In this document: one piece after another, positions 22,295 through 63,152 of the stretch
Layout: every line of letters starts with the position of its first letter
Numbering within the stretch: the stretch's first letter is position 1
The notes under the pieces: generated by a model
Seen by the model: the letters and a program-made list of their open reading frames with translations, nothing else
What the model was told of the DNA's origin: nothing
Database searches by the model: none
Translations under genes and position numbers: made by a program
Assembly: GCF_964355755.1 (NCBI RefSeq)
Contig: NC_092670.1
Coordinates: 32,721,795 to 32,785,794, forward strand
Origin: Antedon mediterranea
Lineage: Eukaryota > Echinodermata > Crinoidea > Comatulida > Antedonidae
Reading direction: 5' to 3'
Length of the DNA stretch: 64,000 nucleotides

Positions 22295-22790
22295 TACAGT
22301 TATCGTCCTGGAATGCAAATTAAACTAGGACACAATTTACTATTAGCTTTTGGTTTCATGCACTTGGTGGATATAATGGTATCAGCATTGAGCAAACGGT
22401 GGAGCAAACTGTCTTTAGCAATCACGATGGCGTATTTTCACATCAACGAAACACGACAACGGACAGATATACCACACAATTTCTGGGGAAATATTTCACT
22501 CCAAAATATGTGAAAGTCGTGTCGAATACTTCGCTTAATGGCACCACGTAGTAATGACGTATGATGGTAAAACGTTTTTATTTTACGTAAATGGAGAGGT
22601 ACCAGAAACATGCGTGGATTGCTGTATAGGGAGTTGTCCAATTTCTCAAACGAACATCTACGTCGGACAGTGCTCGGTTCAGTGTACCGAACGCCAGCAG
22701 TTTCATGGACAAATAGACGAATTGAGAATATTCAATGTGTCCTTATTTAGAATTGAAGTTAATAACTTACATCAAAAAGATCATCAATGA
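22295..22790 (+). pseudogene. LamG-family relic (frameshifted)
   Basis: Pieces of a LamG domain occur in different frames. About 22310-22545 reads FTISFWFHALGGYNG... after a one-base slip. 22542-22790 reads WHHVVMTYDGKTFLFYVNGE ... NIYVGQ ... GQIDELRIFNVS. There is no leader exon, and the upstream part is replaced by the 32-bp minisatellite. Its cysteine pattern (CVDCCIGSC) is closer to the 2.0 kb gene than to the array genes, indicating an older lineage. A further scrap of the same subtype lies at 44.6 kb. Confidence 0.75.
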
Positions 22791-23454
22791 ATATGTTTAA
22801 TTAATTTGAATTAATTAATGTTTAATTTAATTAAAACTGTTTTTAAAGAATTATTTTTAATGTATGTAATATTTTTTGCCAAGTTGAAAACAAGAAAAAA
22901 AAAAATAAAAATTCGGCGTATTCGGTTATGTTTGAAATTTTTAAATACAAGAAATTTAAGCTAATTTTCTAGTCATAAAAAGATAACAAACTTATTCTTA
23001 TACTTATACTATAAGTCAAACGTCAACATTGGTATATTACAATAATATTGAAATGAATTTGACTAAAGAAAACAGAAACAAAGACAACAAAAAATATGTC
23101 AGCGGTAGGACTATGCTCCTATTATCACAAACAATATCATTGATCGATTTCTTGTTATCAAATCTGAATCTTGGTAATAAAGAAACTACTTCTTACAATG
23201 GAATATGATTAAGCCAGCCAATTAGAAGTGATACTCGGAAATTTGTTTAATATAAATGGCATGGACCTAATGTTTAACAATACGAAGAGCTGTCATTAGT
23301 TATTCAGACAAGTTTATGAAGTGGTCGTAAACAATTGATCACCTAAATAACTAATATCTTAAGCTTCATTCACACTTGTTTTGTTTCCGAAAATCATATT
23401 TATATTACACAGAATTGAACGGCGCCTGCTTATGTGAATATCACTGTAGATTAA
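22791..23454. other. AT-rich spacer upstream of the array
   Basis: Nothing coding is recognised. The promoter block found upstream of the other members is not seen here. Confidence 0.5.
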
Positions 23455-25418
23455 ATGATTAAAATCTACTTGCAGGTAAGAGGGTGGAGAGGTTTCATCA
23501 AATTACAATACATTCTCATATATTACAGTTTGTGAAAGCAACAAAGCTTGACAAACAACTGAGAGTAAAGGTCCTAGAATCTTAATCTCTTGTTTCCATT
23601 TCCCGTACCATTTCTTTAAATTAATACATATTGTAATTATCGATTAAAAAAATAAACAAATAATTTTCTACTCAGGATTTGCCAGTCGCAGTTATTAAAA
23701 TTAGGTTTTTTTTATTTGTTTTTTGATATCTTTTCTTGCAGGAACTACTTGTTACTTGCGTTTTCTTAACATACGCTAACTCATGTTCAGTCGATCACAC
23801 ACTGGTGAGAACTTCGGAAGGATATCGATGTGTTAAACTTGTTGAACATAAATGTTTTACACCGTCAAAACAACATACAGTTTATGAAGCAGTATCTGTT
23901 CATACCGTGAATAATTCAACATCTTTTACAAATTCACCTTCAACTAAAAATTCACTACCAACTATAAATTCACTACCAACTACAAATTCACAACAAAATA
24001 CAAATTCACAACCAACTACAAATTCACTACCAACTACAAATTCACTACCAACTATAAATTCACCACCAACTACAAATTCACCACCAACTATAAATTCACC
24101 ATCTACTAAATATTCACCATCTACTACAAATTCACCATCTACTACAAATTCACTACCAACTACAAATTCACCACCAACTACAAATGCACCCCCAACTACA
24201 AATTCACTACCAACTACAAATTCACCATCAACTACAAATTCACCATCAACTACAAATTCACCATCAACTATAAATTCACTACCAACTATAAATTCACCAT
24301 CAACTACAAATTCACCATCAACTATAAATTCACCATCAACTACAAATTCACTACCAACTATAAATTCACCATCTACTACAAATTCACTACCAACTACAAA
24401 TTCACTACCAACTACAAATTCACCACCAACTACAAATTCACAACCAACTACAAATTCACCACCAACTACAAATTCACCACCAACTACAAATTCACAACCA
24501 ACTACAAATTCACTACCAACTACAAATTCATTACCAATTATAAATTCACAACCAACTACAAATGCACAACCAACTACAAATTCACCGCCAACTACAAATT
24601 CACCACCAACTATAAATTCACCACCAACTACAAATGCACCACCAACTATAAATTCACCATCTACTACAAATGCACCATCTACTACAAATTCACAACCAAC
24701 TACAAATTCATCTTCTACTATAAATGTACAGTCTAATAGCATTGGAAACACGGAAGTTGGTAAAGTTACTACATCATATCGAACATGTGATAGCACATCT
24801 TATGCTATTTTGGTTCATTTCGCATTTGAAGGTGATACATGGACCAACAATGGCATTGGTAGAAAAATCTACGGTAATATTAGCGGTTCTGGAATTGAAT
24901 ATCAAAATGGACTTCTCGGCCTTGGAATTGTGTTTACAGGTAACCAGAGAATGACGATTCCAATGCAAACATTTGAACTTGGACCTGAATTTTCAGTCAG
25001 TGTGTTCTTTCGACGAAATAGCGGTAGTGTTCACACTATAATAAACAATGGGTGTGGTAATGATCGTTGGCACATAAAAGCAATTTCAAGTCCAAGACCG
25101 ATGTACGTTTTTGTTAAATTTACTAATAATGTAACATGTCTCTGTGAAATGGAAGCTAATAATGAATGGCATCATGTAGTTATGACGTATGATGGCTTTG
25201 TGTTTCTATTTTACTTAGACGCTGTAATTCAAGAAGAATGCGTTACATTTGGTAAATTTCCAATATTAAATTCGGATATTTTTGTAGGTCAAGAAAGTGA
25301 TGACTGTTTCTCTAATGGATTTTCTGGTATGATAGATGAATTGTTGATATTCAATAGTTGTGTGTCCACAGAGCTAATCCATATTTTATATAACAACAGG
25401 AATACAAATATTGAATAA
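23455..25418 (+). CDS. Secreted LamG protein with the longest mucin-like stalk (array gene 1)
   Basis: Exon 2 is 23742-25418 (TTGCAG acceptor). The usual exon 1 is absent upstream. The best candidate is 23455-23475, MIKIYLQ, ending CAG|GTAAGA, which joins in phase 0 to ELLVTCVFLTYANS to make a good signal peptide; this exon is uncertain. The mature part has CSVDHTLVRTSEGYRCVKLV and KCF, then about 44 tandem six-residue units of the type NSPPTT/NSPSTI/NSLPTT encoded by 18-bp repeats. The LamG domain follows (about the last 210 residues: FAFEGDTW, FSVSVFFRR, NNGCGNDRW, WHHVVMTYDG, DIFVGQ, GMIDELLIFNS). The stalk lacks N-x-S/T sequons but is rich in potential O-glycosylation sites. The role is unknown; it is presumably an extracellular binding protein. 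Confidence 0.8.
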
Positions 25419-26992: not shown

Positions 26993-29323
26993 ATGAGCAG
27001 CGGAAGTGGTCGAAAATGTCTACTAATTCATATTCTATTAATGTGGGTAAGTACATGTGCATTATTAAAAATATACACTATAGATACAGTTGAACCTTTC
27101 TGCTGTTTCTCCTGTGCAGAAAACTTTCCAAAAAGGATACTCATCCACCATGGAAATCCTATTTGGTACTACTCTCTGTACATTTTTTGGTTCGTTTGAA
27201 CATTATTCATTCAATAAAAAAATATTAATATTTTAAACATTCTAAACTTTTTCGAACACGTAATATAATAGTATCCTAAAATATTTGTAAGCATGCATCA
27301 TGTAAGTGGAAACTTTTACAAATGACAATTTACCTTCTGTAAGTGGAAACCCGGAAAGTTTTTCGAAGAATATAATTTTTACACACAACCCACGTGTTTC
27401 TGAACAGAAAAATGTTTAAAGATTCAATGAAATGTAAATAATGTACAATGCTTAAACTATCTTCTGCAGGTCAACTAAGATTTCTGGTCATCTAATCAAC
27501 TGAAAATCTCGCAAACACTAATTTAGTAGGCCTAAGTGGAATATGATATTACATATGATACCATAAATATAAAACAAATATGAAATTAATTAGATACAAT
27601 GTGACTATTACCAAAAAGGTTTTCCATAGATACAGTAGGAGCACTTATGAGGGTTTTTACTTACTGTATAGTTTGCAGATGATAAATATATTATTTTTAT
27701 ATAATCGTATAGTAGTGTCATAAGTCATTCAGATATATCATAAGTGGTCATGCATACTTTCATGTATTCTGTCACCTACATAACCACTTATTTGGAGAAG
27801 TTTGGTGAACCTTACCGATTATTATAAATAACAAAATTACAGTAACACTTTTTTGAAGAAACATAACTGAGAACAGGCCCTAACATTTTATGTTCTACTA
27901 TTTTTAATGGATATTGCAACTATCACTTCCGTTTATTTGCTTATTGAATTCTCTTGCAGGAATTACTCGTCATTTGCGTTACCTTAGCACACGCTAACTT
28001 GTGTTCAGTCAATCAAACACCAGTGAGAACATTGGAAGGATATCGGTGTGTCAAGCTGGTTGAAAATAAATGTTTTACATTTATAAGAACGCATTCTATT
28101 AACAATATTACCACAGTTAAAAATGTATCTCTAATGCTTGACGTGAGTAATAAAAAAATAACACCAGAAGAAAGTGTTATATACAATATAAATGAACATT
28201 CAACTGTAAATTCAAAATATACTCAACATTCACAATATGCTATACATCCATCTTCAACTAAAATTTCAACATCTACTATAAGTTCACCATCAACTATGAA
28301 TTTGCCATCTACTACAGATTCACTATCAACTATCAATTCACCATCAAATATAAATTCTTCGTCCACAATAAATTCACCTTCTACTATAAATTCACTACCA
28401 ACTACAAATTCACCACCAACTACAAATTCACCATCTACTACAAATTCACCACAAACTACAAATTCACCACCAATTACAAATTCACTACCAACTATAAATT
28501 CACAAACAACTACAAATTCACCACCTACTACAAATTTACCACCAACTACAAATTCACCATCTACTTCAAATTCACCACAAACTACAAATGCACCATCTAC
28601 TACAAATTCACTACTAACTATAAATTCACATTCTACTATAAATTTACAGTCTAACACGGAAGTTGGTAAAGTTACTACATCATATAGAACATGTGATAGC
28701 ACATCTCATGATATTTTGGTTCATTTTGTATTTGAAGGTGATACATGGACCAACAATGGCATTGGTAGACAAATCTACGGTAATATTAGCGGTTCTTGAA
28801 TTGAATATCAAAATGGAATTCTCGACCTTGGAATTGTGTTTACATGAAACCAGAGAATGACGATTCCAATGCAAACATTTGAACTTGGACCTGAATTTTC
28901 AGTCAGTGTTTTCTTTCGACGAAATGGTGGTGGCGATGTTCAAGCTATAATAAACAATGGGTGTGGTAATGATCATTGGCAAATAAAAGCATTTTTTTTT
29001 CAAATCCAGGACCGATGTACGTTATTGGTACATTTACTAATGATGTAAATTGTATCTGTAAAGTGGAAGCTAATAATGAATGGCATCATGTAGTTATGAC
29101 GTATGATGGCTTTGTGTTTCTATTTTACTTAGACGCTGTAATTCAAGAAGAATGCGTTACATTTGGTAACTTTCCTATATTAAATTCGGATATTTTTGTA
29201 GGTCAAGAAAGTGATGACTGTTTCCCTCTAAATGGATTTTCTGGTATGATAGATGAATTGTTGATATTCAATAGTTGTATGCCAACAGAGCTAATCCATA
29301 TATTTTATAACAACAGGAATTAA
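26993..29323 (+). pseudogene. LamG-family array gene 2, inactivated
   Basis: Exon 1 (26993-27046, MSSGSGRKCLLIHILLMW) and the exon 2 start (27960) are intact, with the promoter block and splice sites conserved. Exon 2 encodes the leader, CSVNQT...KCF and about 21 stalk units. It is then cut by TGA at 28797-28799 (GGTTCTTGA where the sisters have GGTTCTGGA) and a second TGA in GTTTACATGAAACC near 28845. Two extra T in a homopolymer at about 28992 shift the frame. The LamG remainder continues to TAA at 29323. If translated, it would give a secreted stalk with only the first ~40 residues of LamG. The lesions are few, so inactivation is recent. Confidence 0.85.
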
Positions 29324-29801
29324 AACATTGAATAAATAAAAGAAAGAAGCATCTTACCAACAATTTAGGCCTACATGTATCAATTTGTCGACTTTCAATG
29401 ACTGGTATCAATGTATGCTGTATCTCCGAATTCAATAACAATCGTTTTAATTATAATAATTATTATAGTACAGTATTATAGTCTGTAATCAGTACTCGTA
29501 AAAGGAATAGTATTAATAATGTAAAAAATACTCTCAAATTGTTTTAAGTAAATTATTAGGAACTTGGAGTTTATTTCAAATGTTAATTGAAGAAGAGGTC
29601 AATTAGTATAAAGTTAAGCACGGTGGTATGTTACATTAGGTAGGTAGTTTTCTAGAAATTGTATATTACTTTTGGTGTCTTACTGATGTTGTTATCACTG
29701 TTGATCGTTATGAAGTTTTTAAATTGTTTCAACTATTATAATAAGAATAAGAAATAAATATTATTTATTTTTACTCATATACTTAAAGTACCTGTCAATA
29801 A

Positions 29802-29955
29802 AGTTGACTCTTTTGATTCTCCAGTTGGTAATTGCAAAAATTGATAAGCAATACAGTATAAAATGAACACGTTTTGTCAAAGCGTATTCGTTTTACTGTA
29901 TTGCTTATCAATGTTGTTTTCTCAATTACCAACTGGAGAATCAAAATAGTCAACT
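29802..29955. mobile_element. Near-perfect palindromic element, copy 2
   Basis: Same position relative to the preceding gene as copy 1. GATTCTCC in the left arm pairs with GGAGAATC in the right, whereas copy 1 has GATTTTCC/GGAAAATC, so both arms changed together. Confidence 0.9.
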
Positions 29956-30745
29956 AAAGTCAATACGTAAAAGAAAAAATAAACAGTAATCGATAGGACT
30001 GGGCTTTTATTACTTATACACATTTTCTTTGTGTTTCAATCATATAATTAGATATACTGATTTTATGACGTATAATGACTATGATGTGCACGGAAAAAAG
30101 TTAGAAAAGTACTACTTAACGATTGTAAAATAGTGCGTGCTATTGCCCGTCATGTGACCTACAATCGTCCAATCCATTTACATGAATTTGTTTAGACGTT
30201 ATATAATTATAATTGTTACATCGCTTTCAAAAATCAACATGGCCCATTATTTGCTAAAGTAGATTAATAAAACAAATTTTATTCGGTAACTCCATAACAT
30301 TATTTGTACTATTGCATCCATAATTTATTATTTGTATATTATAGTACCTAAAAATGACAAGCATCTAATTTATTTGTGCTTTAGTTGAACTGTAAGAATT
30401 AAAAGTATTAATATTTCAAACAATATTTCGCTATTGTTATTTTCATTATTTGTAATAGAACACGTACATTACTATAAATAACTTTAATGTAATCATTACA
30501 AGTACACTATTGACAAATCGATTTCTATATATATCGGAACACGTCATCATGAGTGAAATATATTTTTGAGGAAGATTTTAAGGCAGAAAATATTAATTGT
30601 AGAATATCAAATTAATAACAAAACATATTAAATTATAGGACTACAAATTCGGTATTTGATACAACGTTTAAAAAAGTTATATTTTAGATTGGAGAAATTT
30701 GATGTTTAATTAGAGTACACAGTATTACAGTAATGGACAGAATAT

Positions 30746-30800
30746 TGTACAATTTAATAAGGGTACCAAATTCAAGAAACAGATTCACTTAGCTTGCAGA
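30746..30800 (+). promoter_or_regulatory. Conserved TATA-like/initiator block, array gene 3
   Basis: Same block as at 26851 (GTACAATTTAATAAGGGTAC ... TTCACTTAGC), 142 bp before the start codon. Confidence 0.6.
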
Positions 30801-30887
30801 CCACAAAAGAAATGGAGTTGATGCAGTTTGAAGATAGTAGCAGGGAAGAAATTTCAATTTTTCCCTAATAGTAGAATTTTGTACAAA

Positions 30888-33216
30888 ATGAGCAGCGGAA
30901 GTGGTCGAAAATGTCTACTAATTCATATTCTACTAATTTGGGTAAGTACATGTGCATTATTAAAAATATACACTATAGATACAGTTGAACCTTACTGCTG
31001 TTTCTCCTGTGCAGAAAACTTTTCATAAAGGACACTCATCCATGGAAATCCTATTTGGTACTACTCTCTGTACATTTTTTTGGTTCTTTTGAACATTATT
31101 CATTCAAAAAAAAAAAATTAATAATTTAAACATTCTAAACTTTTTCGAACACGTAATATAATAGTATCCTAAAATATTTGTAAGCATGCATCATGTAAGT
31201 GGAAACTTTTACAAATGACAATTTACCTTCTGTAAGTGGAAACCCGGAAAGTTTTTCGAAGAATATAATTTTTACACACAACCCACGTGTTTCTGAACAG
31301 AAAAATGTTTAAAGATTCAATGAAATGTAAATAATGTACAATGCTTAAACTATCTTCTGCAGGTCAACTAAGAATTCTGGTTATCTAATCAACTGAAATT
31401 CTCGCAAACACTAATTTAGTAGGCCTAAGTGGAATATGATATTACATATGATACCATAAATATAAGACAAATATGAAATTAATTAGATACAATGTGACTA
31501 TTACCAAAAAGGTTTTCCATAGATACAGTAGGAGTGCACTTATGAGGGTTTTTACTTACTGTATAGTTTGCAGATGATAAATATATTATTTTTATATAAT
31601 CGTATAGTAGTGTCATAAGTCATTCAGATATATCATAAGTGGTCATGCATACTTTCATGTATTCTGTCACCTACATAACCACTTATTTGGAGAAGTTTGG
31701 TGAACCTTACCGATTATTATAAATAACGAAATTACAGTAACACTTTTTTGAAGAAACATAACTGAGAACAGGCCCTAACATTTTATGTTCTACTATTTTT
31801 AATGGATATTGCAACTATCACTTCCGTTTATTTGCTTATTGAATTGTCTTGCAGGAATTACTCGTCATTTGCGTTACCTTAGCACACGCTAACTTGTGTT
31901 CAGTCAATCAAACACCAGTGAGAACATTGGAAGGATATCGGTGTGTCAAGCTAGTTGAAAAGAAATGTTTTAAATTTATAAGAACGCATTCTATTAACAA
32001 TATTACCACAGTTAAAAATGTATCTCTAATGCTTGACGTGAGTAATAAAATAATAATACCAGAAGAAAGTGTTATATACAATATAAACGAACTTTTAACT
32101 GTACATTCAAAATATACCCAACATTCACAATCTACTATACATCCATCATCAACTAAAAATTCACCATCTACTATAAATTCAACATCAACTATGAATTTGC
32201 CATCTACTACAAATTCAGCACCAACTATAAATTCACCATCAGATATAAATTCTCCGTCCACTATAAATTCACCTTCTACTATAAATTCACTACCAACTAC
32301 AAATTTATCACCAACTACAAATTCCCCATCTACTACAAATTCACCACAAACTACAAATTCACCACCAATTACAAATTCACTACCAACTATAAATTCACAA
32401 ACAACTACAAATTCACCACCAACTACAAATTTAGAACCAACTACAAATCCACCATCTACTACAAATTCACCACAAACTACAAATGCACCATCTACTACAA
32501 ATTCACTACCAACTTTAAATTCACCTTCTACTATAAATGTACAGTCTAACACGGAAGTTGGTAAAGTTACTAAATCATATAGAACATGTGATAGCACATC
32601 TCATGATATTTTGGTTCAATTCGTATTTGAAGGTGATACATGGACCAACAATGGCATTGGTAGACAAATCTACGGTAATATTAGCGGTTCTGGAATTGAA
32701 TATCAAAATGGAATTCTCGACCTTGGAATTGTGTTTACAGGAAACCAGAGAATGACGATTCCAATGAAAACATTTGAACTTGGACCTGAATTTTCAGTCA
32801 GTGTTTTCTTTCGACGAAATGGTGGTGGCGATGTTCAAGCTATAATAAACAATGGGTGTGGTAATGATCATTGGCAAATAAAAGCATTTTTTTCAAATCC
32901 AGGACCGATGTACGTTATTGGTACATTTACTAATGATGTAAATTGTGTCTGTAAAGTGGAAGCTAATAATGAATGGCATCATGTAGTTATGACGTATGAT
33001 GGCTTTGTGTTTCTATTTTACTTAGACGCTGTAATTCAAGAAGAATGCGTTACATTTGGTAAATTTCCAATATTAAATTCGGATATTTTTGTAGGTCAAG
33101 AAAGTGATGACTGTTTCTCTCTAAATGGATTTTCTGGTATGATAGATGAATTGTTGATATTCAATAGTTGTATGCCAACAGAGCTAATCCATATATTTTA
33201 TAACAACAGGAATTAA
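30888..33216 (+). CDS. Secreted LamG protein, medium stalk (array gene 3)
   Basis: Exon 1 is 30888-30941 (MSSGSGRKCLLIHILLIW) and exon 2 is 31855-33216, phase 0, about 471 residues. The leader completes with ELLVICVTLAHANL, then CSVNQTPVRTLEGYRCVKLV and KCF. About 21 units of a six-residue NSPSTI/NSPPTT repeat follow, then a full LamG domain (FVFEGDTWTNNGIG, FSVSVFFRRNGG, NNGCGNDHW, WHHVVMTYDG, DIFVGQ, GMIDELLIFNS). It is the only one of the three closest array copies whose stalk of this length and LamG domain are both intact. It was copied with about 3.9 kb of flank. AATAAA lies 12 nt after the stop. Confidence 0.87.
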
Positions 33217-33699
33217 AACATTGAATAAACAAAAGAAAGAAGCATCTTACCAACAATTTAGGCCTACATGTATCAAATTGTCGACTTTCAATGACTCGTA
33301 TCAATGTATGCTGTATCTCCGAATTCAATAACAATCGTTTTAATTATAATAATTATTATAGTACAGTATTATAGTCTGTCAAAAATCAAAATTCGTAAAA
33401 GCAATAGTATTAATAATGTAAAAAATACTCTCAAATTGTTTTAAGTAAAATATTAGGAACTTGGGAGTTTATTTCAAAGGTTAATTGAAGAAGAGGTCAA
33501 TTAGTATAAAGTTAAGCACGGTGGTATGTTACATTAGGTAGGTAGTTTTTTAGAAATTGTATATTACTTTTGGTGTCTTACTAATGTTGTTATCACTATT
33601 GATCGTTATGAAGTTTTTGAATTGTTTCAACTATTATAATAAGAATAAGAAATAAATATTATTTATTTTTACTCATATACTTAAAGTACCTGTCAATAA

Positions 33700-33852
33700 A
33701 GTTGACTATTTGATTCTCCAGTTGGTAATTGCAAAAATTGATAAGCAATACAGTATAAAATGAACACGTTTTGTCAAAGCGTATTCGTTTTACTGTATTG
33801 CTTATCAATGTTGTTTTCTCAATTACCAACAGGAGAATCAAAATAGTCAACT
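33700..33852. mobile_element. Near-perfect palindromic element, copy 3
   Basis: It carries the same arm change as copy 2 (GATTCTCC/GGAGAATC), plus a one-base deletion in the left arm and CCAACAGG in place of CCAACTGG in the right arm. Confidence 0.9.
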
Positions 33853-34642
33853 AAAGTCAATACGTAAAAGAAAGAATAAACAGTAATCGATAGGACTGGG
33901 CTTTTATTACTTATACTAATTTTCTTTGTGTTTCAATCATATAATTAGATATACTGATTTTATGACGTGTAATGACTATGATGTGCACGGAAAAAAGTTA
34001 GAAAAGTACTACTTAACGATTGTAAAACAGTGAGGGCTATTGCCCGTCATGTGACCTACAATCGTCCAATCCATTTACATAAATTTGTTTAGGTGTTATA
34101 TAATTATAATTGTTACATTGCTTTCAAAAATCAACATGGCCCATTCCTCGCTAAAGTAGATTAATAAAACAAATTTTATTCGGTAACTCCATAACATTAT
34201 TTGTACTATTGCATCCATAATTTATTATTTGTATATTATAGTACCTAAAAATGACAAGCATCTAATATATTTGTGCTTTAGTTGAACAGTAAGAATTAAA
34301 AGTATTAATATTTCAAACAATATTTCGCTATTGTTATTTTCATTATTTGTAATAGAACCCGTACATTACTATAAATAACTTTAATGTAATCATTACAAGT
34401 ACACTATTGACAAATCGATTTCTATATATATCGGAACACGTCATCATGAGTGAAATATATTTTTGAGGAAGATTTTAAGGCAGAAAATATTAATTGTAGA
34501 ATATCAAATTAATAACAAAACATATTAAATTATAGGACTACAAATTTGGTATTTGATACAACGTTTAAAAAAGTTATATTTTAGATTGGAGAAATTTGAT
34601 GTTTAATTAGAGTACACAGTATTACAGTAATGGACAGAATAT

Positions 34643-34697
34643 TGTACAATTTAATAAGGGTACCAAATTCAAGAAACAGATTCACTTAGCTTGCAGA
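34643..34697 (+). promoter_or_regulatory. Conserved TATA-like/initiator block, array gene 4
   Basis: Same block as at 26851, 142 bp before the start codon. Confidence 0.6.
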
Positions 34698-34784
34698 CCA
34701 CAAAAGAAACGGAGTTGATGCAGTTTGAAGATAGTAGCAGGGAAGAAATTTCAATTTTTTCCTAATAGTAGAATTTTGTACAAA

Positions 34785-36885
34785 ATGAGCAGCGGAAGTG
34801 GTCGAAAATGTCTACTAATTCATATTCTACTAATGTGGGTAAGTACATGTGCATTATTAAAATTATACACTATAGATACAGTTGAACCTTTCTGCTGTTT
34901 CTCCTGTGCAGAAAACTTTCCATAAAAGACACTCATCCATGGAAATCCTATTTGGTACTAGTCTCTGTACATTTTTTTGGTTCTTTTGAACATTATTCAT
35001 TCAATAAAAAATATTAATATTTTAAACATTCTAAACTTTTTCGAACACGTAATATAATAGTATCCTAAAATATTTGTAAGCATGCATCATGTAAGTGGAA
35101 ACTTTTACAAATGACAATTTACCTTCTGTAAGTGGAAACCCGGAAAGTTTTTCGAAGAATATAATTTTTACACACAACCCACGTGTTTCTGAACAGAAAA
35201 ATGTTTAAAGATTCAATGAAATGTAAATAATGTACAATGCTTAAACTATCTGCTGCAGGTCAACTAAGAATTCTGGTCATCTAATCAACTGAAAATCTCG
35301 CAAACACTAATTTAGTAGGCCTAAGTGGAATATGATATTACATATGTTACCATAAATATAAGACAAATATGAAATTAATTAGATACAATGTGATTATTAC
35401 CAAAAAGGTTTTCCATAGATACAGTAGGAGTGCACTTATGAGGGTTTTTACTTACTGTATAGTATGCAGATGATAAATATATTATTTTTATATAATTGTA
35501 TTGTAGTGCCATAAGTCATTCAGATATATCATAAGTGGTCATGCATACTTTCATGTATTCTGTCACCTACATAACCACTTATTTGGAGAAGTTTGGTGAA
35601 CCTTACCGATTATTATAAACAACAAAATTACAGTAGCACTTTCTTGAAGAAACATAACTGAGAACAGGCCCTAACATTTTATGTTCTATTATTTTTTAAT
35701 GGATATTGCAACTATCACTTCCGTTTATTTGCTTATTTAATTGTCTTGCAGGAGTTACTCGTCATTTGCGTTACCTTAGCACACGCTAACTCGTGTTCAG
35801 TCAATCAAACACCGGTGAGAACATTGGAAGGATATCGGTGTGTCAAGCTAGTTGAAAATAAATGTTTTACATTTATAAGAACGCATTCTATTAACAATAT
35901 TACCACAGTTAAAAATGTATCTATAATGCTTGACGTGAGTAATAAAATAATAACACCAGATGAAAGTGTTATATACAATATAAATGAACATTCAACTGTA
36001 AATTCAAAATATACTCAACATTCACAATATGCTATACATCCATCTTCAACTAAAATTTCAACATCTACTATAAGTTCACCATCAACTATGAATTTGCCAT
36101 CTACTACAGATTCACTATCAACTATCAATTCACCATCAAATATAAATTCTTCACCCACTATAAATTCACCTTCTACTATAAATGTACAGTCTAATAGCAT
36201 TGGAAACACGGAAGTTGGTAAAGTTACTACACCATATCGAATATGCAATAGCACATCTCATGATATTTTGGTTCATTTCGCATTTGAAGGTGATACATGG
36301 ACCAGTGGCATTGACAGACAATTCTACGGTAATATTAGCGGTTCTGGAATTGAGTATCGAAATGGACTTCTCGGCCTTGGAATTGTGTTCACGGGAAACC
36401 AGAGAATGATGATTCCAATGGAAAATGTTGAACTTGGACCTGACTTTTCAGTCAGTGTTTGGTTTCAGCGCAATGGTGGTGATGATATTCAAGCTATAAT
36501 AAACAATGGGTGTGGTGACGAAGGTCGGTTGCAAATAAAAATTTCAGTTCAAAGTACAGGTTTTATGAAGATTATGGGTAAATTTACAAATGAAATAACT
36601 TGTATCTGTGTAGTGAAAACTAATAATGAATGGCATCATATAGTTATGACGTATGATGGTTTCGTTTTTCTATTTTACTTAAACGCCGTGATTCAAGACC
36701 AATGTATTAAATTTGGTAACTTTCCAATTTCGAATTCGGATGTTTTCGTAGGTAAAAAAAGTGATGATTGTTTTGAATTACGTCCGTTTACCGGTATGAT
36801 TGATGAACTGTTTATTTTCAATAGTTGTTTACCAACAGAGCTAATCCGAAATTTATATAACAACAGGAATGACAATATTGAATAA
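34785..36885 (+). CDS. Secreted LamG protein, short stalk, mosaic (array gene 4)
   Basis: Exon 1 is 34785-34838 (MSSGSGRKCLLIHILLMW) and exon 2 is 35752-36885, phase 0, about 395 residues. The N-terminal part and first stalk units match array gene 2. After about seven units it switches to a hinge like array gene 1 (NVQSNSIGNTEVGKVTTPYR). The LamG domain is the most diverged of the array (FSVSVWFQRNGGDD, NNGCGDEGRLQ, CICVVKTNNEWHHIVMTYDG, DVFVGKKSDDC, GMIDELFIFNS). This is consistent with recombination or gene conversion. The stop codon lies inside an AATAAA. Confidence 0.87.
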
Positions 36886-36944: not shown

Positions 36945-37165
36945 CAATACAAATTTTGAATTCGGATAGTAGGTCAACAAAGTGAGGATTGTTTATATTT
37001 AAAAGGCTTTTCTTACGGATAGATGAATTGTACAGTTCATATTCAATATTTTTATTCCAGCAAATCTTCTATATCAACAGGAATAAAAATATTAAATGCA
37101 CCAAAGAAAGAAGCCTGTTACTAATAATGTCGACCTCCATGTAGGCCAATCGTTGAATATGTCTG
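36945..37165 (+). pseudogene. 3' relic of another LamG-family copy
   Basis: AATTCGGATAGTAGGTCAAC and following bases read GQQSEDC, a frame-broken version of GFSGMIDEL, and then the downstream flank (AGGAATAAAAATATTAAATG ... CCTCCATGTAGGCC) that follows array genes 2 and 3. Only the last ~45 codons survive. It marks the right end of the array. Confidence 0.7.
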
Positions 37166-37870: not shown

Positions 37871-37978
37871 ATATATCTGTTGCGCGTATGTACAACTGAG
37901 GACCAGTGCTGTTCCACCGTACCACGCCGAGAATGTTAAAGAGTCGCTATACAATCGAGTTTGAACAATACCATGAAA

Positions 37979-38050
37979 GCCCCAGTGGTCTAATGGTTAG
38001 GGCAACTGCATATCAAGCAGACGGTCCGAGTTCGAGTCTCGGTTGGGGCA
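37979..38050 (+). tRNA. tRNA-like gene, copy 1 (anticodon position reads ATC)
   Basis: 72 nt. The acceptor stem GCCCCAG pairs with TTGGGGC. The D-arm is GTCTAATGGTTAGGGC, the T-arm CCGAG-TTCGAGT-CTCGG is perfect, and a T run follows (pol III terminator). The seven-base anticodon loop ATATCAA puts ATC at 34-36, an Asp-type anticodon that eukaryotes normally do not use, and the top anticodon-stem pair is A-A. It may be a variant or a pseudo-tRNA. Confidence 0.7.
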
Positions 38051-38342
38051 ACTTTTTCTCATTCTCACAGATTTCCTCATCTTTATCGTTTCAAATTAAT
38101 TAATTACATTTCAGTATATCACCGGGCGGTTTAGAATTAATGTTCTTTGCCTACTGTGTTTATATATATAAAAGTATCTCTTCGGAGATCCCGTCACGTG
38201 AATAAAAATACTGTAAGATGAGGGCGTATCAATTTGATCTCTGTTGCGCGTGTGTACAACTGAGGACTAGTGCTGTTCCGCCGTACCACGCCGAGAATGT
38301 TAAATAGTCGCTATCCAATCGAGTTTGAACAATACCATGAAA

Positions 38343-48600: not shown

Positions 48601-51600
48601 AATCAATTCTTGTATTTAACTGCGCGCATACATCTTTCGCTGATGTCACAACTTGAAGATTTTGCACGGCAGTTAAGGCTGGTTGTGTCAAATTGACAAA
48701 ACTATCTTTCTTCACTTCTGACTGTATGTTTTCATCTCCTTCATCATTTTCCTTTATATCAAATGATTCTCTAACGTACCCTTCTTCATGTTGGTTCAGG
48801 TCAAATAGATTTTCATTATTTACATTATCATTATCATTTTCCTCACTGTCATCACTTCCTCCTTCAAATGATTTAAAGTCGTCCTCATGACATACATAAA
48901 GAATTATTCTCTTGAAATCCCTTCCAAGTTCGTTTTTGTATTTTTCTAGTTGAAAGAATTCTTTGTAATTTCCTGGTATAAATCGAGCGTAGCTGTTATC
49001 TTCGTAAAGTAAAACATAGCTGCTTTTGCTGTCAAACTCTCTATCGAAAGCAGCCAATTTTTCAATAGCCCTTTCAAGAACAATCGGATATGTGGCCGCC
49101 TTGGGCAACCTAATCGGTAGTCGTTTCCCTCTAGCAGCTTTGAGCATTCCGTTTTTTAACTGCTTAAACCCAATGTTAATTGTTACTTCTTCATCTAATT
49201 TTCTTGACTTTTTCCTTGGCATTGTGACATTCTCTTTTGATGTTTTAGCTTTTAAAAATTTATCAAATGACATAATGCTCCTTTTCATACTGGTGGTATC
49301 TGTCTGAGAAGTCGAAATACTGGTGGAGCAGGTGGGAGATTGAGATTCAACTTCATTTGACAATTTTGGTGAGCAGTCAGATGGTCGCAATTTTGTTTGG
49401 TTGCCTTTACATGACCAACAAAATTTTGATATCACTAGAACCTTTGCTCCACACTCACTACAGTATCTGGAAAATAGAATAATGCATGTACTGTTAAAGT
49501 TGGTGTGGTGATGGACATCAAACACAAACCCTCATACGATTGTCACTACTTACAGTACAGGTAGATTTGCAAGGGCAATTTATTTATACTGTACTCTATA
49601 AGTAAACTTACACAATATCTATATCCTTTTCACGGCCTCCTCCTCCATCACGTTCAGCCATTTTTTGGTCTACTTGTTCTAAAAGGAATTTAAGCACAAA
49701 TATCATGTATAAAATATAGTCAAACAATCGTAATTAAATGAAACAAGTGAGAGAGAAAGAGTTACTTTCCGTGCTGGCCTAGAAAACACATAAGCCTACC
49801 GACTGTATGCAAGCTCAATGTCATACATATTATGTTATACATAACATTAATTTGCACTATCAAAAAAATAATACTATATAATATTTGTCATAAAATAACT
49901 ATAATTCAAGGCTAATCGTTAATATACCAAGTATCAATTCCAAAACTATCTACTATCCTATAATTATTATAGGATAGATAGTTTTATAATAATAATAGGC
50001 CTATAGGCCTACAACTACAATAAAATCTAGGCCTATACCCACCTAGCTGCGGCTGCTAATAGCTAAGTCTAGCCTATATGGCCTAGCCGACGATCAGTGG
50101 CGCGAGTAAATTCGCTATGCCTAGCTAGGCCTACTAGTTTTACTAGGCCTAATGCCTGTAGTACTAGCTAGGACTGTAACAGTAGCTAGCCTAGGCCTAC
50201 TTACTGTAAAAAAAACTTAATTGTTTAATATAAAAAACATATTACTGTAAATATATTAAAACATTGTAGAATGTAGGGTCTAGACCTACCTTATAAAGCC
50301 TAGACCTAGGGTCTAGCCCGGCATAGAGAGTTCAAGAAGAGTGCAATAAACACGTGCGTACTGTAAATTAATATATTATTTACATCAATACACAAATATT
50401 AATTACTTACCTCAGAAAAAATCGAAGATTCCAGGGGTTTCACTTCCGCCGTGGTAACTCATTTCCGCCGTGGCTTTCTGTAATTTGCCGTGGTGTTTCA
50501 TTACTAATTTGCCGTGGCGTTTCAATACTAATTTGCCGTGGTGTTTCATTTTTAAGTTGCCGTGGTATTTTTGTTAAATTGCCGTGATGTTTTATTTTTC
50601 ATTTGCCGTGATGTTTTATTTTTAATTTGCCGTGGCTTTTTTCAAATTGCCGTGGCTTTTTTCAAATTGCCGTGGCTTTTTTTGAAAATTGCCGTGATAT
50701 ATTTTTAAACTTGCCGTGACACTTATAGGCCACCGTAATGTTATCAATTTTTATTTTGTTTCGATTTTCAGCAGTATGTAATAACTCAGTTATATCATTA
50801 ATAAAAATAAAAATATTAAATAAAAATGAAAAAGGTAAAGGTGACCCTTATTGTATTCCTACTTCACATTTAAAGGATTCTCCAATTTTGTTGCCAACCT
50901 TTACATGCCCTTTTAGTTTACTATACATTGTTGTTAAAACTTAGATTATTTTACCTTTTTTACCAGATTTTCTTAGTTTACTTATAAAGAAATCGTGTCT
51001 AATAGAATCGAAAGCGCGTTTTAAATCTATAAACGCCATGTACACAGTTCCTCGTTTTTTTTTAGAGATATTTGTTAACAATTGTGTCTAAAATAAATAT
51101 GTTATCAATAGTACGACAATCTTTTCTAAACCCTCCCTGTTCTTGATGTAATATTTCATTTTCTTCTGTCCATTTGCTTAATCTATTGCTTATAATGTAT
51201 AAAAACACCTTGCCTAAAGTGGATATTAAGGATACGCCTCTATAATTTGCTGGTTGATCTCTTTTACCCTTTTTAAATATAGGAATAATAATGCTTGTTC
51301 ATCATGTCACTAATGCAACTAGGAATGCAATTTTTACCTACAAAAAAATACGACCTTAGATTTAATGGAATTTGACACCCACTTTTAGATCTTATAATAT
51401 ACACTATACAATTTATTTATTTAATTATACATTTGTTTTCTTGTAGGACCTGCTCGCGGCTTACGTTACATTTAGTAACGTTAGAAGTGTTAACTCATGT
51501 TCCGTGGATCAAACACTGGTGAAAACATCTGAAGGATATCGATATATCAACCTATTTGAAAGAAATGTTTTTCTTTTAAAAAGAAAAATATTCACAAAAT

Positions 51601-53020
51601 TAACACAGTCAAAGATATATCGCAAGTGCCTGACGTGAGTAATGAAATACTTATACCCGAAAAAAAGTGATACGAATTGTTACCAAAGAAGTGCATGATT
51701 TTTAACTGATATAATTAAATAATTGTAGTCTTTTAAACTACTACTGAGACAGAACATAAAATAAACATAAAGGACGTTATTCATCATCAATTCACGAATA
51801 AATGCAATAGATTTCTATCTACATTAAAATACCATAGATTTGATCGAATTTTGAGTCGGTCGTGATCAACACCCTTAGATCTTTAATTTACACTATAGGC
51901 CTACAATCTATTCATTTTTTATATAATTGTTTTCTTGTAGAAGCTGCTAGCGGGCTACGTTACATTTAGTAACGTTAGAAATGTTAACTCATGTTCCGTG
52001 GATCAAATACTGGTGAGAACATTGGAAGGATATCAATGTATCAAACTAGTTGAACAGAAATGTTTTTTTCTAAGAAACATTGACAAAATTACCACAGTCA
52101 AACATGTATCTCAAGTGCCTAATGAAATACTAGTATCAGAAGAAAGTGATACATACTATACAAATGGACACTCTACTGTAAATTCACAATCTACTCTACA
52201 TTCTTCATCCACTATAAATTCACCATCCACTATAAATTCACCATCTACTATAAATTCACCGTCTACTATAAATTCACCGTCTACTATAAATTCACCGTCT
52301 ACTATAAATTCACCGTCTACTATAAATTCACCGTCAACTATAAATTCACCGTCTACTATAAATTCACCGTCTACTATAAATTCACCGTCTACTATAAATT
52401 CACCGTCTACTATAAATTCACCGTCTACTATAAATTCACCGTCTACTATAAATTCACCGTCAACTATAAATTCACCGTCTACTATAAATTCACTGTCTAC
52501 TATAAATTCACCGTCTACTATAAATTCACCGTCTACTATAAATCCACCGTCTACTATAAATCCGCCATCAACTATAAATTCACCATCTAATATAAATTCA
52601 CCATCAACTATAAATTCACCATCTCCTACACATTCACCATCTACTATATATCCATCGTCTACAACAATCGGAAACACGGAAGTTGGTAAGGTTCCTACAT
52701 CATATAGAACATGTGAAAGCACATCTCATGATATTTTGGTTCATTTCGCATTTGAAGGTGATACATGGACCAACAATGGCATTGGTAGAAAAATCTACGG
52801 TAATATTAGCGGTTCTGGAATTGAACATCAAAATGGAATTCGTGGCCTTGGAATTGTGTTCACGGCAAACCAGCGAATGACGATTCCAATGCAAACATTT
52901 GAACTTGGACCTGAATTTTCAGTCAGTGTTTGGTTTCGACGCAATGGTGGTGATAGTATTCAAGCTATCGTAAATAATGGGTGTGGTGACAATAATTTAA
53001 TTTCTGTAAAATGCCTCTGA
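45628..53020 (+). CDS. Secreted LamG-family gene with a 6.2 kb transposon-filled intron, truncated LamG
   Basis: The proposed exon 1 is 45628-45687 (MLSRNINGIARTAINVVMIL, donor GTAAGT). Exon 2 is 51941-53020 after TTCTTGTAG. Joined in phase 0 the leader continues KLLAGYVTFSNVRNVNS, then CSVDQILVRTLEGYQCIKLV and KCF; about 379 residues in all. The stalk is the most homogeneous in the window: about 25 units, nearly all NSPSTI. The LamG domain starts normally (FAFEGDTWTNNGIGRKIYG, FSVSVWFRRNGG, NNGCGDN) but breaks off at 53018-53020, losing about 85 residues including the WHH and GxIDEL parts. The intron contains an integrase remnant, an antisense HECT gene, a LINE fragment and a decayed extra exon 2. 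The exon 1 assignment is inferred, and the gene may be non-functional. Confidence 0.6.
45829..46460 (+). pseudogene. Integrase (DDE-type) remnant of a DNA transposon
   Basis: An open frame of about 210 codons carries the second half of a retroviral-type integrase core: LVTDRGTEN holds the second acidic residue and RNQRIEGWWSFFRR the final Glu, 33 residues later. The first catalytic Asp and everything N-terminal are missing; an in-frame stop at 45825-45827 precedes the similarity. It is either 5'-truncated or a last exon whose partners are gone. This integrase type is known from animal DNA transposons such as the IS3EU/Ginger-like groups. The exact superfamily is my inference. It is convergent with the HECT gene 1 kb downstream. 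Confidence 0.75.
46461..47473. other. AT-rich gap between convergent integrase and HECT frames
   Basis: No coding region is recognised. AATAAA-type signals occur at both ends (for example 46518-46545), consistent with two convergent 3' ends. Confidence 0.5.
47474..49661 (-). CDS. HECT-type E3 ubiquitin ligase-like protein with zinc ribbon (G2E3-like, transposon-associated)
   Basis: Exon 1 is 49612-49661 (MAERDGGGGREKDIDI plus two bases; donor GTAAGT) and exon 2 is 47474-49466, about 680 residues. Residues 18-36 form a zinc ribbon (YCSEC ... FCWSC). The middle is low-complexity and acidic (SDDSEENDNDN). The last ~340 residues are HECT-like: VKFSGEEGIDSGAMSMEF near the start and FPLVGACSRDLTLP near the end, with the presumed catalytic Cys at about 646 (GAC in place of the usual TC). 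The frame is intact. HECT proteins transfer ubiquitin through this Cys; here activity is inferred. Its position beside an integrase and GCCGTGG repeats suggests transposon cargo rather than a host gene. Confidence 0.82.
49662..50440. other. HECT gene 5' flank rich in TAGGCCTA palindromes
   Basis: Between about 49990 and 50330 there are many overlapping CTAGGCCTA/TAGCTAGGCC motifs. No gene is seen. It probably contains the HECT promoter; no TATA box is obvious. Confidence 0.5.
50440..50722. repeat. Degenerate ~25-bp repeats with GCCGTGG core
   Basis: About 13 copies of TTGCCGTGGT/CTTTTT-type units, all in one orientation (50448-50715). A single inverted match, CCACGGCA, lies at 45829 beside the integrase remnant. 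It looks like the sub-terminal repeat block of the element carrying the integrase and HECT genes. Confidence 0.75.
50735..51315 (-). mobile_element. Non-LTR retrotransposon reverse-transcriptase fragment (decayed)
   Basis: The minus strand reads, with frameshifts, RGVSLISTLGKVFLYIISNR, EQGGFRKDCRTIDNIFIL and YMAFIDLKRAFDSI, the central fingers/palm part of a LINE reverse transcriptase. Both ends are lost. Confidence 0.75.
51447..51700 (+). pseudogene. Decayed duplicate of the LamG exon 2 start
   Basis: After TTTTCTTGTAG it reads DLLAAYVTFSNVRSVNSCSV, then DQTLVKTSEGYRYINLFERN. The second cysteine of the motif is lost (YRY) and the frame breaks soon after. The intron end upstream also matches that before 51941, so a block of about 500 bp was duplicated in tandem. 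It has no stalk or LamG domain. Confidence 0.75.
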
Positions 53021-56031: not shown

Positions 56032-57936
56032 ATGTTGTACAAAATCTATAACGGAAAAGTGCACAAATGTACAATCATGTACATCATGTTAATGTGGGTA
56101 AGTAAATATATAATGTAGTACACCAATAGAAACAGGAGATTATAGGAAATTTTGCTTCAAGACAAACATTAAATCAAAAAAAAATTTTAAAAATCAATAG
56201 GAACGGCACTTTTCCTCGAAAATGGTAATGCTGATTTATTTTTTAAATATATATTATTAATTATGTTCCAGAAAATAGATTTTGATGTTAACACGGAAAG
56301 ATGAAAATAAAATGAAGAAAAGTAGGATTATTAATGATATTTCTATAACAATTAAACCTTTCTTTATCATTTTTTTTTTATATTTCTGTCCTATTTCTTT
56401 TATTTTTAGGGATTAGTAATGGACCAGAGATCTTATCAAAACCCAGAAGCTCATTTAATTAGCAAAATATTCTGCCCCGTAAACCTTACGTTGGTGAAAT
56501 TATCCGAAGAACATAAATGCGTTAAAATTGTAGAAAAAAATAAATGTATCATATATAAAAAGAATAATAAGACCTATGAAGCAACAACCATCAATAAAAA
56601 TATTCAACAAGAAATTATGAGAGTTCAAGATACGGCTATCGACAGTATTCAAGAAGAAACAACGACAGCTAAAGATCCGACCATCGACAATATCAACAAG
56701 GACACGACTAAGGCTATAGCAACGGCTATTGGCAACATCCAAGATGAAACGACAACATTTGAAGATGCGACAATCGACAGCATGCACGTGGGAACGACGA
56801 CAGTTGAAAACACGACCGTTAAAAACCTGCATATAGGAACGACGGTAGTTGAAAATTCGACCATCGACAATATCAACAAAGACACGACTAGCGCTAACGC
56901 AATGGCCACTGGCAACATCCGAGATGTGACAATAACAGACAAAGATACGACAATCTACAGCATGCATGTAGAAACGACGACAGTTGAAAATACGACCATT
57001 AACAGTATCAACAAGGAAACGACTACCGCTAAAGCAACGGCCATTGGCAACATCCGAGATGAAACGACAACAGTTGAAGATACGACAATCGACAGCATGC
57101 TTGCAGAAACTACGCCATTTGAAAATACAGCAACCAACATGGATGTAGAAACGACGAGAGTTAATGATCCAACTACTGACAACATGGATGTACAAACGAT
57201 GACAGCTGAAGACTCTGCCCAAGCAAGCAATCAAAATGTCGGTATTGATGATGATACTTATGATTATGATTTCAATTCATTTCTTATCTCATATTACGAG
57301 TTCGAAGGCAATATTGCAGACACATCAGGAAATGGAAACAGTGCCTCGGTTTCCATCGATTTTGCTATGAGTTTTTTCGTTGGTGTTATTGGTGAAGGAA
57401 TTGCATTCAAAAATGGTAATCAGTATCAAATCGATTTTAGAACTATCAATTATTCTCAACTCAGACTAGGATTTACCATAAGCATCTGGTTTCTTCATTT
57501 TAACGGCAACAACAACAAACAGCAAAGCATTATTAGTAATGGATGTGAGACAGGCTGGGGAATTGAAACCATGAAAAAGCAAAACGAGCTTGTTGTTTCT
57601 TTCTTTCTTAACGGGGTACTTGCATGTCAGCAAAGCATTGGTGGAGTCGATTTATGGCACCATATACTTGTTACATATGCTAATCAACAGTTTGAAATGT
57701 ACATTGACGGTCGAAGTCAAAGTTGCTACATATGTTGTCACATTTTAGTTGAACAGTCCATTATCTCGGTAGCTCGACAATGTTCCTCGTACTTCAATGG
57801 TGTTATAGATGAACTAAAAATATTTAACACAACATTATCGAGAGAGCAAATCTATACTCTATATGAAACAACTGTATCAAATGATGGGTGGGTTTTGTAT
57901 GACGACTATGGTTACCTGTACTTTGATACCGAATAG
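56032..57936 (+). CDS. Divergent secreted LamG protein with a 15-residue-repeat stalk and acidic tail
   Basis: Exon 1 is 56032-56097 (MLYKIYNGKVHKCTIMYIML plus MW) and exon 2 is 56410-57936, about 530 residues. The family motif is present as CPVNLTLVKLSEEHKCVKIV and NKC. The stalk is unlike that of the array genes: about 11 degenerate 15-residue units of the type ETTTVENTTINSINK / ETTTAKATAIGNIRD, with many N-x-T sequons and acidic residues. The LamG domain follows (YYEFEGNIADTSGNGN, FTISIWFLHFNGN, SNGCETGWG, WHHILVTYAN, FNGVIDELKIFNTTLS). A unique acidic/tyrosine-rich C-terminus ends YDDYGYLYFDTE. The frame is intact, so it is a good candidate for an active gene. Confidence 0.87.
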
Positions 57937-59040: not shown

Positions 59041-59081
59041 CAATACCACTGTCAGACATTAAAAAAAAAATACAAAACAGA

Positions 59082-59417
59082 ATGGTGTCCAATATTAATA
59101 ACAGAAATGTACGAAAATGTACATTGATTCATATCATATTAATGTGGGTAAGTAAAGAATTGTATTCATATTGGAAATTAGATAATTATGAATTTGAATC
59201 ATTTTAATGGGCACATTCGTTCTTAACATTTGAAGAACAATATGTTGCATCGATAAGATTTCCAATGATAAATTCGGAAATGTTTGTAGGTCCACAAAGT
59301 GATAATTGTCCTCCTAATTCGTTTAACATTATGGTAGATGAATCGTATATATTCAATAGTTGTATACCAATAGATTTTATTCAAGATCTATACGAGATTT
59401 GTAATCTCGGAAATTAA
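59082..59417 (+). pseudogene. LamG-family gene with most of exon 2 deleted
   Basis: Exon 1 (59082-59147, MVSNINNRNVRKCTLIHIIL plus MW) and its GTAAGT donor are intact. Only about 90 bp later the sequence is already the LamG C-terminus (59239-59417: FPMINSEMFVGPQSDNC, then MVDESYIFNSC). The rest of the intron, the leader completion, the stalk and most of the LamG domain are gone, probably by one deletion. Confidence 0.8.
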
Positions 59418-61357: not shown

Positions 61358-61945
61358 TAAGTGAACACAATATGATTAATAATATATAAGTCTGTTTAGT
61401 TTAGTACAAAGAAGTAATGCGGTACGTAAGTAATATTAAAACATTTCGAGTAGGCCTACAATTCCAGTCATTTTGGTCGACCGATTAAAAAAGAAATTAT
61501 CAATCAATAATTATATAATTAATAGTATATATCGTATTGCACAAAATACATAATTATAATCAATTGCAAATTAGATAGTAAATTACTTCAGAGGAAGTCA
61601 GGATTTTATATACAATGTTCGAATCAAACTGAACAATGTACCTTTACAATTATAATATTGAAGACTGTACTTTTGTATATACAACAATATCCAACGTTAA
61701 TAGCTCTAGACAAATGTACTACATATTATATTGCAAACAATTTGATTTGTAAATTTGTAAAGTCATGCATGATTTAATAATCTTGAATTAGGAACGTTAA
61801 TTTAATATTATCACATGGTATAAGTGTAACGGATGATGATGATCGACCTAAGTGCAATTGTGAGTAAAGATTCTGTACAAGTACAAGACTCCACGGAATA
61901 GTTGTAGACTGAGATTTGAAAGAAGATAGATTTGAAGATAGCAGA
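61358..61945. other. AT-rich spacer upstream of the last LamG gene
   Basis: No gene is seen. TTTGAAGATAG just before exon 1 (61931) echoes the 5' leader of array genes, but the TATA-like block is not recognised. Confidence 0.45.
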
Positions 61946-63152
61946 ATGTTATGTATAAATAGTACTGAAATTCTACGAAAACGTACATTAAGTCACGTCA
62001 TAATAATGTTGGTAAGTACAATGTCAAAGTATTTATAGACTAGGATAATGTTAAACTATTACAGGGTTGGAAGTGGAAGTAGCATTGAGTACTTTTTGGC
62101 CGAAAAAAAAACAAAACCACAGCATTGACATGATTCTTATTCTACTTCTTTAGATTACTGTTTAGGCTTTATATAATGATCGTATTGTTTTTTTTTTATA
62201 ATCATTTCTTTTTTTTGTTTTCAATATTTCATATATCAAATGGAATGAATTATAACAATGTTAATATTTTCCCTTTTTCGGTATTTTCATACATATTATT
62301 AAAAAATATGTTTTCAGAATTAATAATTGTATTTATCGATATGTTTTTAATAGACAATTCTTGCAGTTCAGCGAAGTTACCTAGCGGATTGTAGGAATAT
62401 CAGCGCATGCCCAGTCAACCAGACACTAGTCAAAGCTTCAGACGGATACAGTTGTGTCACGCTTTTAGTAAAAAATAAGTGTTTCAGATATAGTAAAAAC
62501 ATGACAAATACTGTTAATAATTTATCTAACCGAACGAAAACTGCTACTGAAATAATACATGATGGTATTTTGGCTCACTTCGCATTTGAAGGTAATACAT
62601 TGGCAAGCTCAGTTGACACAGAAATCTACGGTGCCATGGGCGGTTCTGGAATTACCTTTGCACATGGATTTTTTAACCTAGGAATTGTTTTTACAGGCAA
62701 TCAGAGAATGATGTTTGCATTGGAGGATTTGGATTTTGAATTTTCTGTCAGTTTTTGGTTTCATCATGTAGGTGATGATGGAAATCAAGTTATCATAAAC
62801 AATGGGTGTGGTAGTGCTCACTGGCAAATAATATCATATTCAACAAATATGGTTATGGTTGTATTTACCGATAATAATTTATTATCTGGAACTGTCCTTG
62901 GTTTTGTTAAAGAACTCCAAGAATGGCATCATGTACTTATGACGTGTAATGGCTTTTTGATGTCCGTGTACATAGACGGCGTAATGGCAGGTGATGTTTA
63001 TTTTAACCTTCCAGTCATGAGTTCTGATATTTTCGTTGGTCAAACATGACTGTTCCGATTCCAGTGATCCATTTAATGGTATGATAGATGAATTGTTAAT
63101 ATTTAATAGCTCTATACCCATAAACGTAATTCAAACCTTGTATCAGATCTAA
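61946..63152 (+). pseudogene. Stalk-free LamG-family gene with one frameshift
   Basis: Exon 1 is 61946-62011 (MLCINSTEILRKRTLSHVII plus ML; donor GTAAGT). Exon 2 starts at 62372 using a TTCAG acceptor; the nearer TTGCAG would give an early stop. It encodes RSYLADCRNISACPVNQTLV, GYSCVTLL, KCFRYSKN, a short linker without NSPSTI repeats, and a LamG domain (FAFEGNTLASSVD, FSVSFWFHHVGDD, NNGCGSAHWQ, WHHVLMTCNG, DIFVGQ). A one-base slip at about 63038 (GGTCAAACATGAC) puts TGA after GQT. The remaining HDCSDSSDPFNGMIDELLIF reads in another frame to TAA at 63152. It is a very young pseudogene, an assembly error, or a truncated protein. Confidence 0.8.

Follow-up and report, generated by a model that had tools for sequence, protein, structure and literature searches.

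Tandem duplication and apparent head exchange in a stalked LamG gene family of the crinoid Antedon mediterranea

A 64-kb window of the genome of the crinoid Antedon mediterranea (the whole stretch analyzed: positions 32,721,795-32,785,794 of contig 1, the assembly comprising 18 contigs and 354 Mb) carries a tandem family of genes predicted to encode secreted proteins with a laminin G (LamG) head. Tandem duplication drives the turnover of these genes, and in at least one exchange a LamG head was coupled to the 5' half of a different gene. Lacking antibodies, invertebrates have other means of diversifying their recognition proteins, and for the best-known families the mechanism was deduced mostly from repeats in the flanks; in the present family, the sequence itself shows a join that lies within a coding repeat or next to it. 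The predicted protein plan comprises a signal peptide, a small three-cysteine module, a Thr/Ser-rich repeat stalk in many members and a LamG head of the concanavalin A-like jelly-roll type; module, stalk and one Laminin_G_3 domain are encoded in this order by exon 2. The reading that we favor, with about evenly balanced confidence, is that of a secreted, lectin-like recognition or adhesion family whose copies would exchange heads by way of the stalk and whose head would bind variable ligands.

Four neighboring loci on the forward strand carry the evidence. Exon 2 of locus A (23742-25418), which encodes the three-cysteine module, a stalk of some 43 18-bp repeats and LamG, is open over 558 codons, and its stalk forms a minisatellite of 18 bp x 43.6 at 23927-24710. 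It is followed by loci B (leader exon 26993-27046, exon 2 27960-29332), B2 (30888-30941 and 31855-33216) and C (34785-34838 and 35752-36885). The segment 24,269-32,286 matches 28,187-36,183 at 94.8% over 8,050 columns and a second match reaches 93.5% over 4,133 columns, pointing to recent tandem duplication in two steps, the unit measuring about 3.9 kb and having its boundaries inside genes. Over some 350 bases upstream of exon 2, A and B share 28-56% identity per 50-bp bin, which is about chance, whereas B and C share 94-100%. Downstream, A and B are 84-99% identical across LamG and 900 bp of flank, and B and C drop from 93% to 72-77% within LamG and to about 40% past it. These comparisons rely on 50-bp bins and blastn, used instead of end-gap-free alignments, whose 76-77% identity between unrelated flanks is meaningless. 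No other copy of the 966 bp upstream of A was found by blastn, apart from one weak match at 39018 (67.5%, 120 columns).

Trees and difference counts of the 5' and LamG halves conflict as a hybrid predicts. Judged by these comparisons, B and B2 are hybrids combining the 5' half of C with the LamG half of A, and their join maps to the 18-bp stalk repeat or the adjoining start of LamG. B2 is predicted to be intact, and B, whose frame is broken in LamG, has the appearance of a young pseudogene; the LamG of the intact gene C departs from those of A, B and B2 away from the stalk. The simplest history would be that an A-like gene and a C-like gene underwent unequal exchange at the stalk or LamG start and that the resulting hybrid was then duplicated to B and B2. 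The farther from the stalk, the more A and B2 diverge from C at synonymous sites, which fits conversion entering LamG from the stalk side. The birth-and-death tandem array put forward by the original prediction is supported, as is recent tandem duplication in the two 3.9-kb steps. The hybrid genes, exchange at the stalk and the arrays elsewhere in the genome go beyond what it had observed.

Under the reading that we favor, an in-frame stalk repeat would help paralogues to mispair, so that heads and stalk length could be exchanged with the frame kept, and conversion would spread out of the stalk into LamG. The stalk may be O-glycosylated and keep the head off a surface or in mucus, and the N-terminal cysteines may join chains. 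The ligand bound by the head would be a variable one, a glycan or a surface ligand of microbial, self or partner origin, and the central patch of the head would for that reason keep changing.

Stalk repeats of six types, each with a unit length divisible by three, occupy the position between cysteine module and LamG in different subfamilies. An 18-bp type is shared by loci A, B, B2, C and H, and a 45-bp type by locus D and the contig 1 gene at 32,711,239; the others are a 39-bp type in the contig 1 gene at 32,802,256, a 102/105-bp type on contig 10, a 63-bp type in a contig 2 singleton and a second, other 18-bp type in a contig 1 singleton. Blastn at E 1e-3 gives links within a type only (A to H, and D to 32,711,239), and translated comparison weakly connects the two 18-bp types in one match (37 residues at 32%, E 3e-4), which shared composition may explain. 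Several family members have no stalk repeat. Ser, Thr and Pro together make up 67% of the A stalk and 29% of the D stalk, and the ratio of nonsynonymous to synonymous differences per site (pN/pS) among repeats is 1.62 in A, 1.02 in B, 1.71 in B2 and 0.21 in H, whose 18-bp repeats are mostly identical. Yeast FLO and ALS adhesins combine a ligand-binding head with a Ser/Thr-rich repeat stalk whose repeats recombine within and between paralogues; they are fungal and wall-anchored, and their heads are unrelated. By this parallel, the family could possess a built-in diversity engine of at least six in-frame minisatellites, each a recombination handle swapping heads and resetting stalk length, an idea that we regard as possible but rather doubtful.

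On contig 1, further copies flank the window on both sides (32,711,239; 32,715,088; 32,720,118; 32,794,280; 32,802,256). The last of these (32802256-32804700) contains about 26 stalk repeats of 39 bp; its module is out of frame with LamG, CTAAGT takes the place of GTAAGT after its leader, and it is probably a pseudogene. Contig 10 harbors about 22 LamG loci plus small fragments at 18.61-18.69 Mb; LamG is one open stretch in 15 and many of the frames include a hydrophobic leader at their start, the leader profile having no match in this array. Seven LamG loci occur at 16.84-16.90 Mb of contig 2, an array without a match to the N-terminal module profile, and singletons lie at 11.65 Mb of contig 2 and 16.65 Mb of contig 1. 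Weaker genome matches were obtained on contig 9 (25.70 Mb) and contig 2 (0.45 and 16.67 Mb), and many others concern the stalk only. The three-cysteine spacing is kept in nine aligned sequences, namely four window loci, three contig-10 copies and both singletons. In the LamG tree, the contig 1 cluster forms one clade (support 98), and 10 of 10 genome matches to the N-terminal module of the type found in locus E (E up to 0.1) fall at 32.71-32.80 Mb of contig 1. This confinement to the window cluster and its flanks fits a local expansion in this genome. Beside the contig 2 array, a LamG gene at 16900572-16901210 shares 60% identity over 276 residues with the metagenome protein P0002 and gives the impression of a conserved relative that is not part of an array.

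Amino-acid differences between young paralogous heads are concentrated in a central patch. In the A-B2 comparison, a stretch of 53 LamG columns with 23% of the nonsynonymous sites accounts for 18.5 of the 30.5 nonsynonymous differences, and the patch rate is five times that of the 3' flank (p 4e-7); in A the patch occupies 25008-25157, where 19 of 150 bases are unlike B2, compared with 46 of 1452 in the 3' flank. The patch was chosen post hoc on A and B2 and fixed in advance for contig 10, and the window test left out B (broken frame), H (half domain) and D, E and F (too diverged). Of the 105 contig-10 pairs, 10 have a pS below 0.05, and four sharing no branches were pooled: nonsynonymous differences amount to 18/508 in the patch versus 16/1388 in the rest (p 0.0013). 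Six pairs were thus left out; one of them, 18653370/18662926, nearly identical and with no common branches, was added as a fifth pair (18/644 versus 16/1751, p 0.0013), and the five others have copies in common with the pairs used or are identical to them. Outside the patch, LamG is constrained in a pool of five pairs (nonsynonymous 28/1792 versus synonymous 19.5/647, p 0.016). We take the central patch to be a hot patch that recurs in a second array. Positive selection acting on it is suggestive but unproven and conversion is a possible source of its differences; blastn found no donor for the patch of A within the window. If the patch corresponds to the binding site, the family supplies a ready set of natural variants. 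Positive selection across the whole of LamG was considered separately and rejected (omega 1.22 for A-B2, p 0.37, and 0.51 for both A-C and B2-C).

A number of observations weigh against a recognition family with stalk-mediated head exchange. The single clear join represents one event, and as the stalk makes up a large share of the sequence common to A and C, a join there is expected and not proven special; moreover, when a tree is built from the 200 bp at the start of LamG, the grouping of A with B and B2 is not settled (supports 48-74). On contig 10, an intergenic 54-bp minisatellite occurs five times within 18640200-18671474, and all four ends of an 8.6-kb block of 99.4% identity lie in this repeat. 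Among five other long matches, two have two of four ends in it and three have none, and only two of nine matches touch any of the four stalk arrays tested. These two meet in the stalk of the 18,679,458 gene, identity being 96.6% toward LamG and 90.0% on the opposite side, which may represent a second switch at a stalk or a stalk-length difference splitting one match. The patch signal is uneven by contig-10 pair, two of the four being significant (p 0.001 and 0.005) and the others not (p 1.0 and 1.0), and the excess of nonsynonymous over synonymous differences in the patch has a p of 0.22 on contig 10 alone and of 0.014 with A/B2 added. Differences also cluster near the stop of A (13/60), where they are mostly non-coding, so that conversion can mimic selection. 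Finally, loci E and F are nearly devoid of a stalk, and the common fold does not reveal a ligand.

Known arrays offer several points of comparison. The Sp185/333 genes of sea urchins have a leader exon of 51 or 54 nt and an intron of 380-413 nt, and form a tandem cluster with 4.5-kb segmental duplications bounded by microsatellites (PMC1988830, PMC3091723). The likeness to them suggested by the original prediction would lie in a short leader exon, a small intron and one long exon (PMC1988830), a structure predicted for seven of the 13 window loci, and extends to the tandem cluster and the presence of repeats in the variable long exon. SpTrf proteins possess glycine-rich, RGD and histidine-rich regions (PMC5491942); in contrast, exon 2 of five of five window proteins has no RGD, 3.9-6.9% Gly and 1.8-2.4% His, and the window proteins carry a three-cysteine module and a LamG head. 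Bivalve C1qDC genes form large tandem arrays attributed to unequal crossing over, with episodic positive selection in six young copies (PMC6835236). Their products are likewise secreted with one lectin-like head, preceded in some by a tail, but this head is C1q, for which the five window proteins have no Pfam match, and stalk-repeat hybrids are not described in the accessible part of that paper. By these comparisons, the family works like the SpTransformer and C1qDC arrays, is a member of neither and belongs to the broad LamG superfamily. No report of it was found in the literature, most subscription journals being outside the search. A protein collection yielded 31 LamG relatives (3 + 28, with a best identity of 34% among the first three); the N-terminal module alone has no relative in this collection, which seems poor in animal genomes, and its profile gives nothing better than E 1.4 against the 31. 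Locus C has no relative in a scan of viral contigs. The lineage specificity across animals initially proposed is a mere possibility, this collection, which seems to hold few animal genomes, giving just LamG relatives.

An immune role would be argued by analogy with such systems, and the sequence does not separate immune, reproductive and structural roles. The family could instead consist of secreted matrix, cuticle, tube or adhesive proteins whose heads bind chitin or a matrix polymer, with copy number serving dosage and the stalk acting as a spacer, an alternative that we consider unlikely while taking it seriously. Vestimentiferan LamGP and molluscan Pif/LamG3 resemble the window family in being secreted LamG proteins multiplied via duplication (PMC8476170, PMC10543319): tandem duplication produced 65 and 140 copies in two tubeworms, where several of these proteins occur in the chitinous tube, and in an oyster, a LamG3 belongs to the shell matrix proteins. 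Arrays of LamG genes are not new in themselves (PMC8476170). These known cases, however, carry VWA or chitin-binding domains, for which none of the five window proteins has a Pfam match at E up to 1, and dosage predicts no change focused on one LamG patch, though the signal of that patch is uneven. Even with a structural function, the family would clearly exemplify hybrid genes joined at a coding minisatellite.

A family of ligands for gamete recognition or allorecognition, kept under diversifying selection, would account for the fast turnover, the hybrid genes and the variable head patch as well as immunity would, but no feature specific to either type of recognition was seen in the sequence and we find such a reproductive or self-recognition function improbable. 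We are similarly skeptical of a mostly neutral array, in which a few functional genes persist amid passive duplication, decay and minisatellite slippage with no selection for diversity. Nine of the 13 window loci are broken, scraps or leaderless, stalk pN/pS is near or above 1 in three of four copies, and the patch pN on contig 10 is not significantly above pS, all as neutrality would have it; yet LamG is constrained outside the patch, and an open LamG domain is present at 15 of about 22 contig-10 loci.

One Laminin_G_3 domain (PF13385) was detected in each of the five proteins analyzed (A, B2, D, E and F) at 29.4-67.5 bits for a cut-off of 27.6, and only E matches the pentaxin family, at 22.0 bits, below its cut-off of 25. 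In structure prediction, the head adopts the jelly-roll fold of the PF13385 family. The LamG part of the E model has a predicted local distance difference test (pLDDT) score of 72-94 by block, its first 100 residues, including the cysteine module, are not predicted (35-62), and the B2 LamG model resembles the E model in its strands. The structure lists place clostridial neurotoxin binding domains high among their entries; a toxin reading was rejected because AbnA, trans-sialidase, CBM40 and PTX3 in the same lists have the LamG-like jelly roll in common with them.

Profile searches and blastn place 13 family loci in the window (AT-rich, 32% G+C), 12 on the forward strand and one on the reverse, confirming the at least 12 forward loci and single reverse locus of the original prediction as well as its range from intact gene to young pseudogene to scrap. 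Profiles were built from A, B2, C, D, E and F, and B, G, H, Hp, R and S were not used. The best profile E-value per locus is at most 2.2e-10 (the weakest being Hp), except for a LamG C-terminal scrap immediately 3' of C (36952-37143), which has no profile match and was detected via blastn with the downstream flank of C (1e-29 to the LamG end and 3' flank of B2). In 20 dinucleotide-shuffled windows, the best E-values were 0.11 for LamG and 0.033 for the N-terminus, and family scores were not reached. Loci E, B2, C and D are predicted to be intact, and 8 of 13 are broken (B, F, G, H) or fragments (R, the scrap at 36952, Hp, S).

Leader exons of 42-66 nt were found at E, B, B2, C, G, D, S and F, and the search of the window revealed none for R, A, Hp, H and the scrap at 36952; the leader said to be common to all loci therefore holds for eight of 13. 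Leader and exon 2 occur together at seven (E, B, B2, C, G, D and F), for which a two-exon model is predicted, with a phase 0 intron of 312-913 nt inside the signal peptide. Splicing, signal peptides and the absence of a membrane anchor were judged by eye from the sequence. When each group was left out of the leader model in turn (B, B2 and C counting as one), five of six were recovered (E <=7.1e-6). The leader of locus E was not (0.9 bits, rank 31), so that it is called from its position and phase, its hydrophobicity and a GTAAGT donor. The exon 2 plan described at the outset was right as to the one LamG in the five proteins tested and did not extend to the stalk of E and F.

Locus E (2009-3516, reverse strand) has its predicted leader exon at 3460-3516 and its exon 2, with three-cysteine module, short linker and LamG, at 2009-2875. 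All other loci are on the forward strand. Locus R (22327-22775) is a LamG scrap identified by profile search, with neither leader nor N-terminus found; a 32-bp satellite (17.4 copies, 97%) lies immediately upstream at 21731-22286. Locus G combines a leader exon (40912-40953) with a degenerate exon 2 (41602-42389). Hp (51447-51664) is an N-terminal scrap, and H (51941-52996) retains the three-cysteine module, the 18-bp stalk and only the first half of LamG. Locus D has its leader exon at 56032-56097 and its exon 2 at 56410-57936, with the 45-bp stalk repeat at 56622-57212. The S leader exon (59082-59147) precedes a LamG scrap (59235-59396), and locus F has a leader exon at 61946-62011 and an exon 2 at 62354-63146 with a short linker and a LamG frame broken close to its end.

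The remainder of the window contains other repeats and fragments. A 3.4-kb direct repeat of 96% identity occupies 6300-9718 and 15236-18636; each copy contains a 200-codon open frame that by eye resembles the end of a reverse transcriptase. The one frame tested has no Pfam match, and a reverse-transcriptase fragment has no relative in a scan of genome contigs. An open frame of 685 codons on the reverse strand (47477-49531) has no Pfam match above cut-off, and an integrase-core fragment (PF24764) lies at 45828-46457. Arrays of a similar 26-bp unit are located at 11915-12248 and 18818-19099 within a longer duplicated stretch (88.8%), and a 364-bp tandem repeat at 37876-38684 (2.2 copies, 96%) contains two tRNA-Asp-like genes with anticodon ATC.

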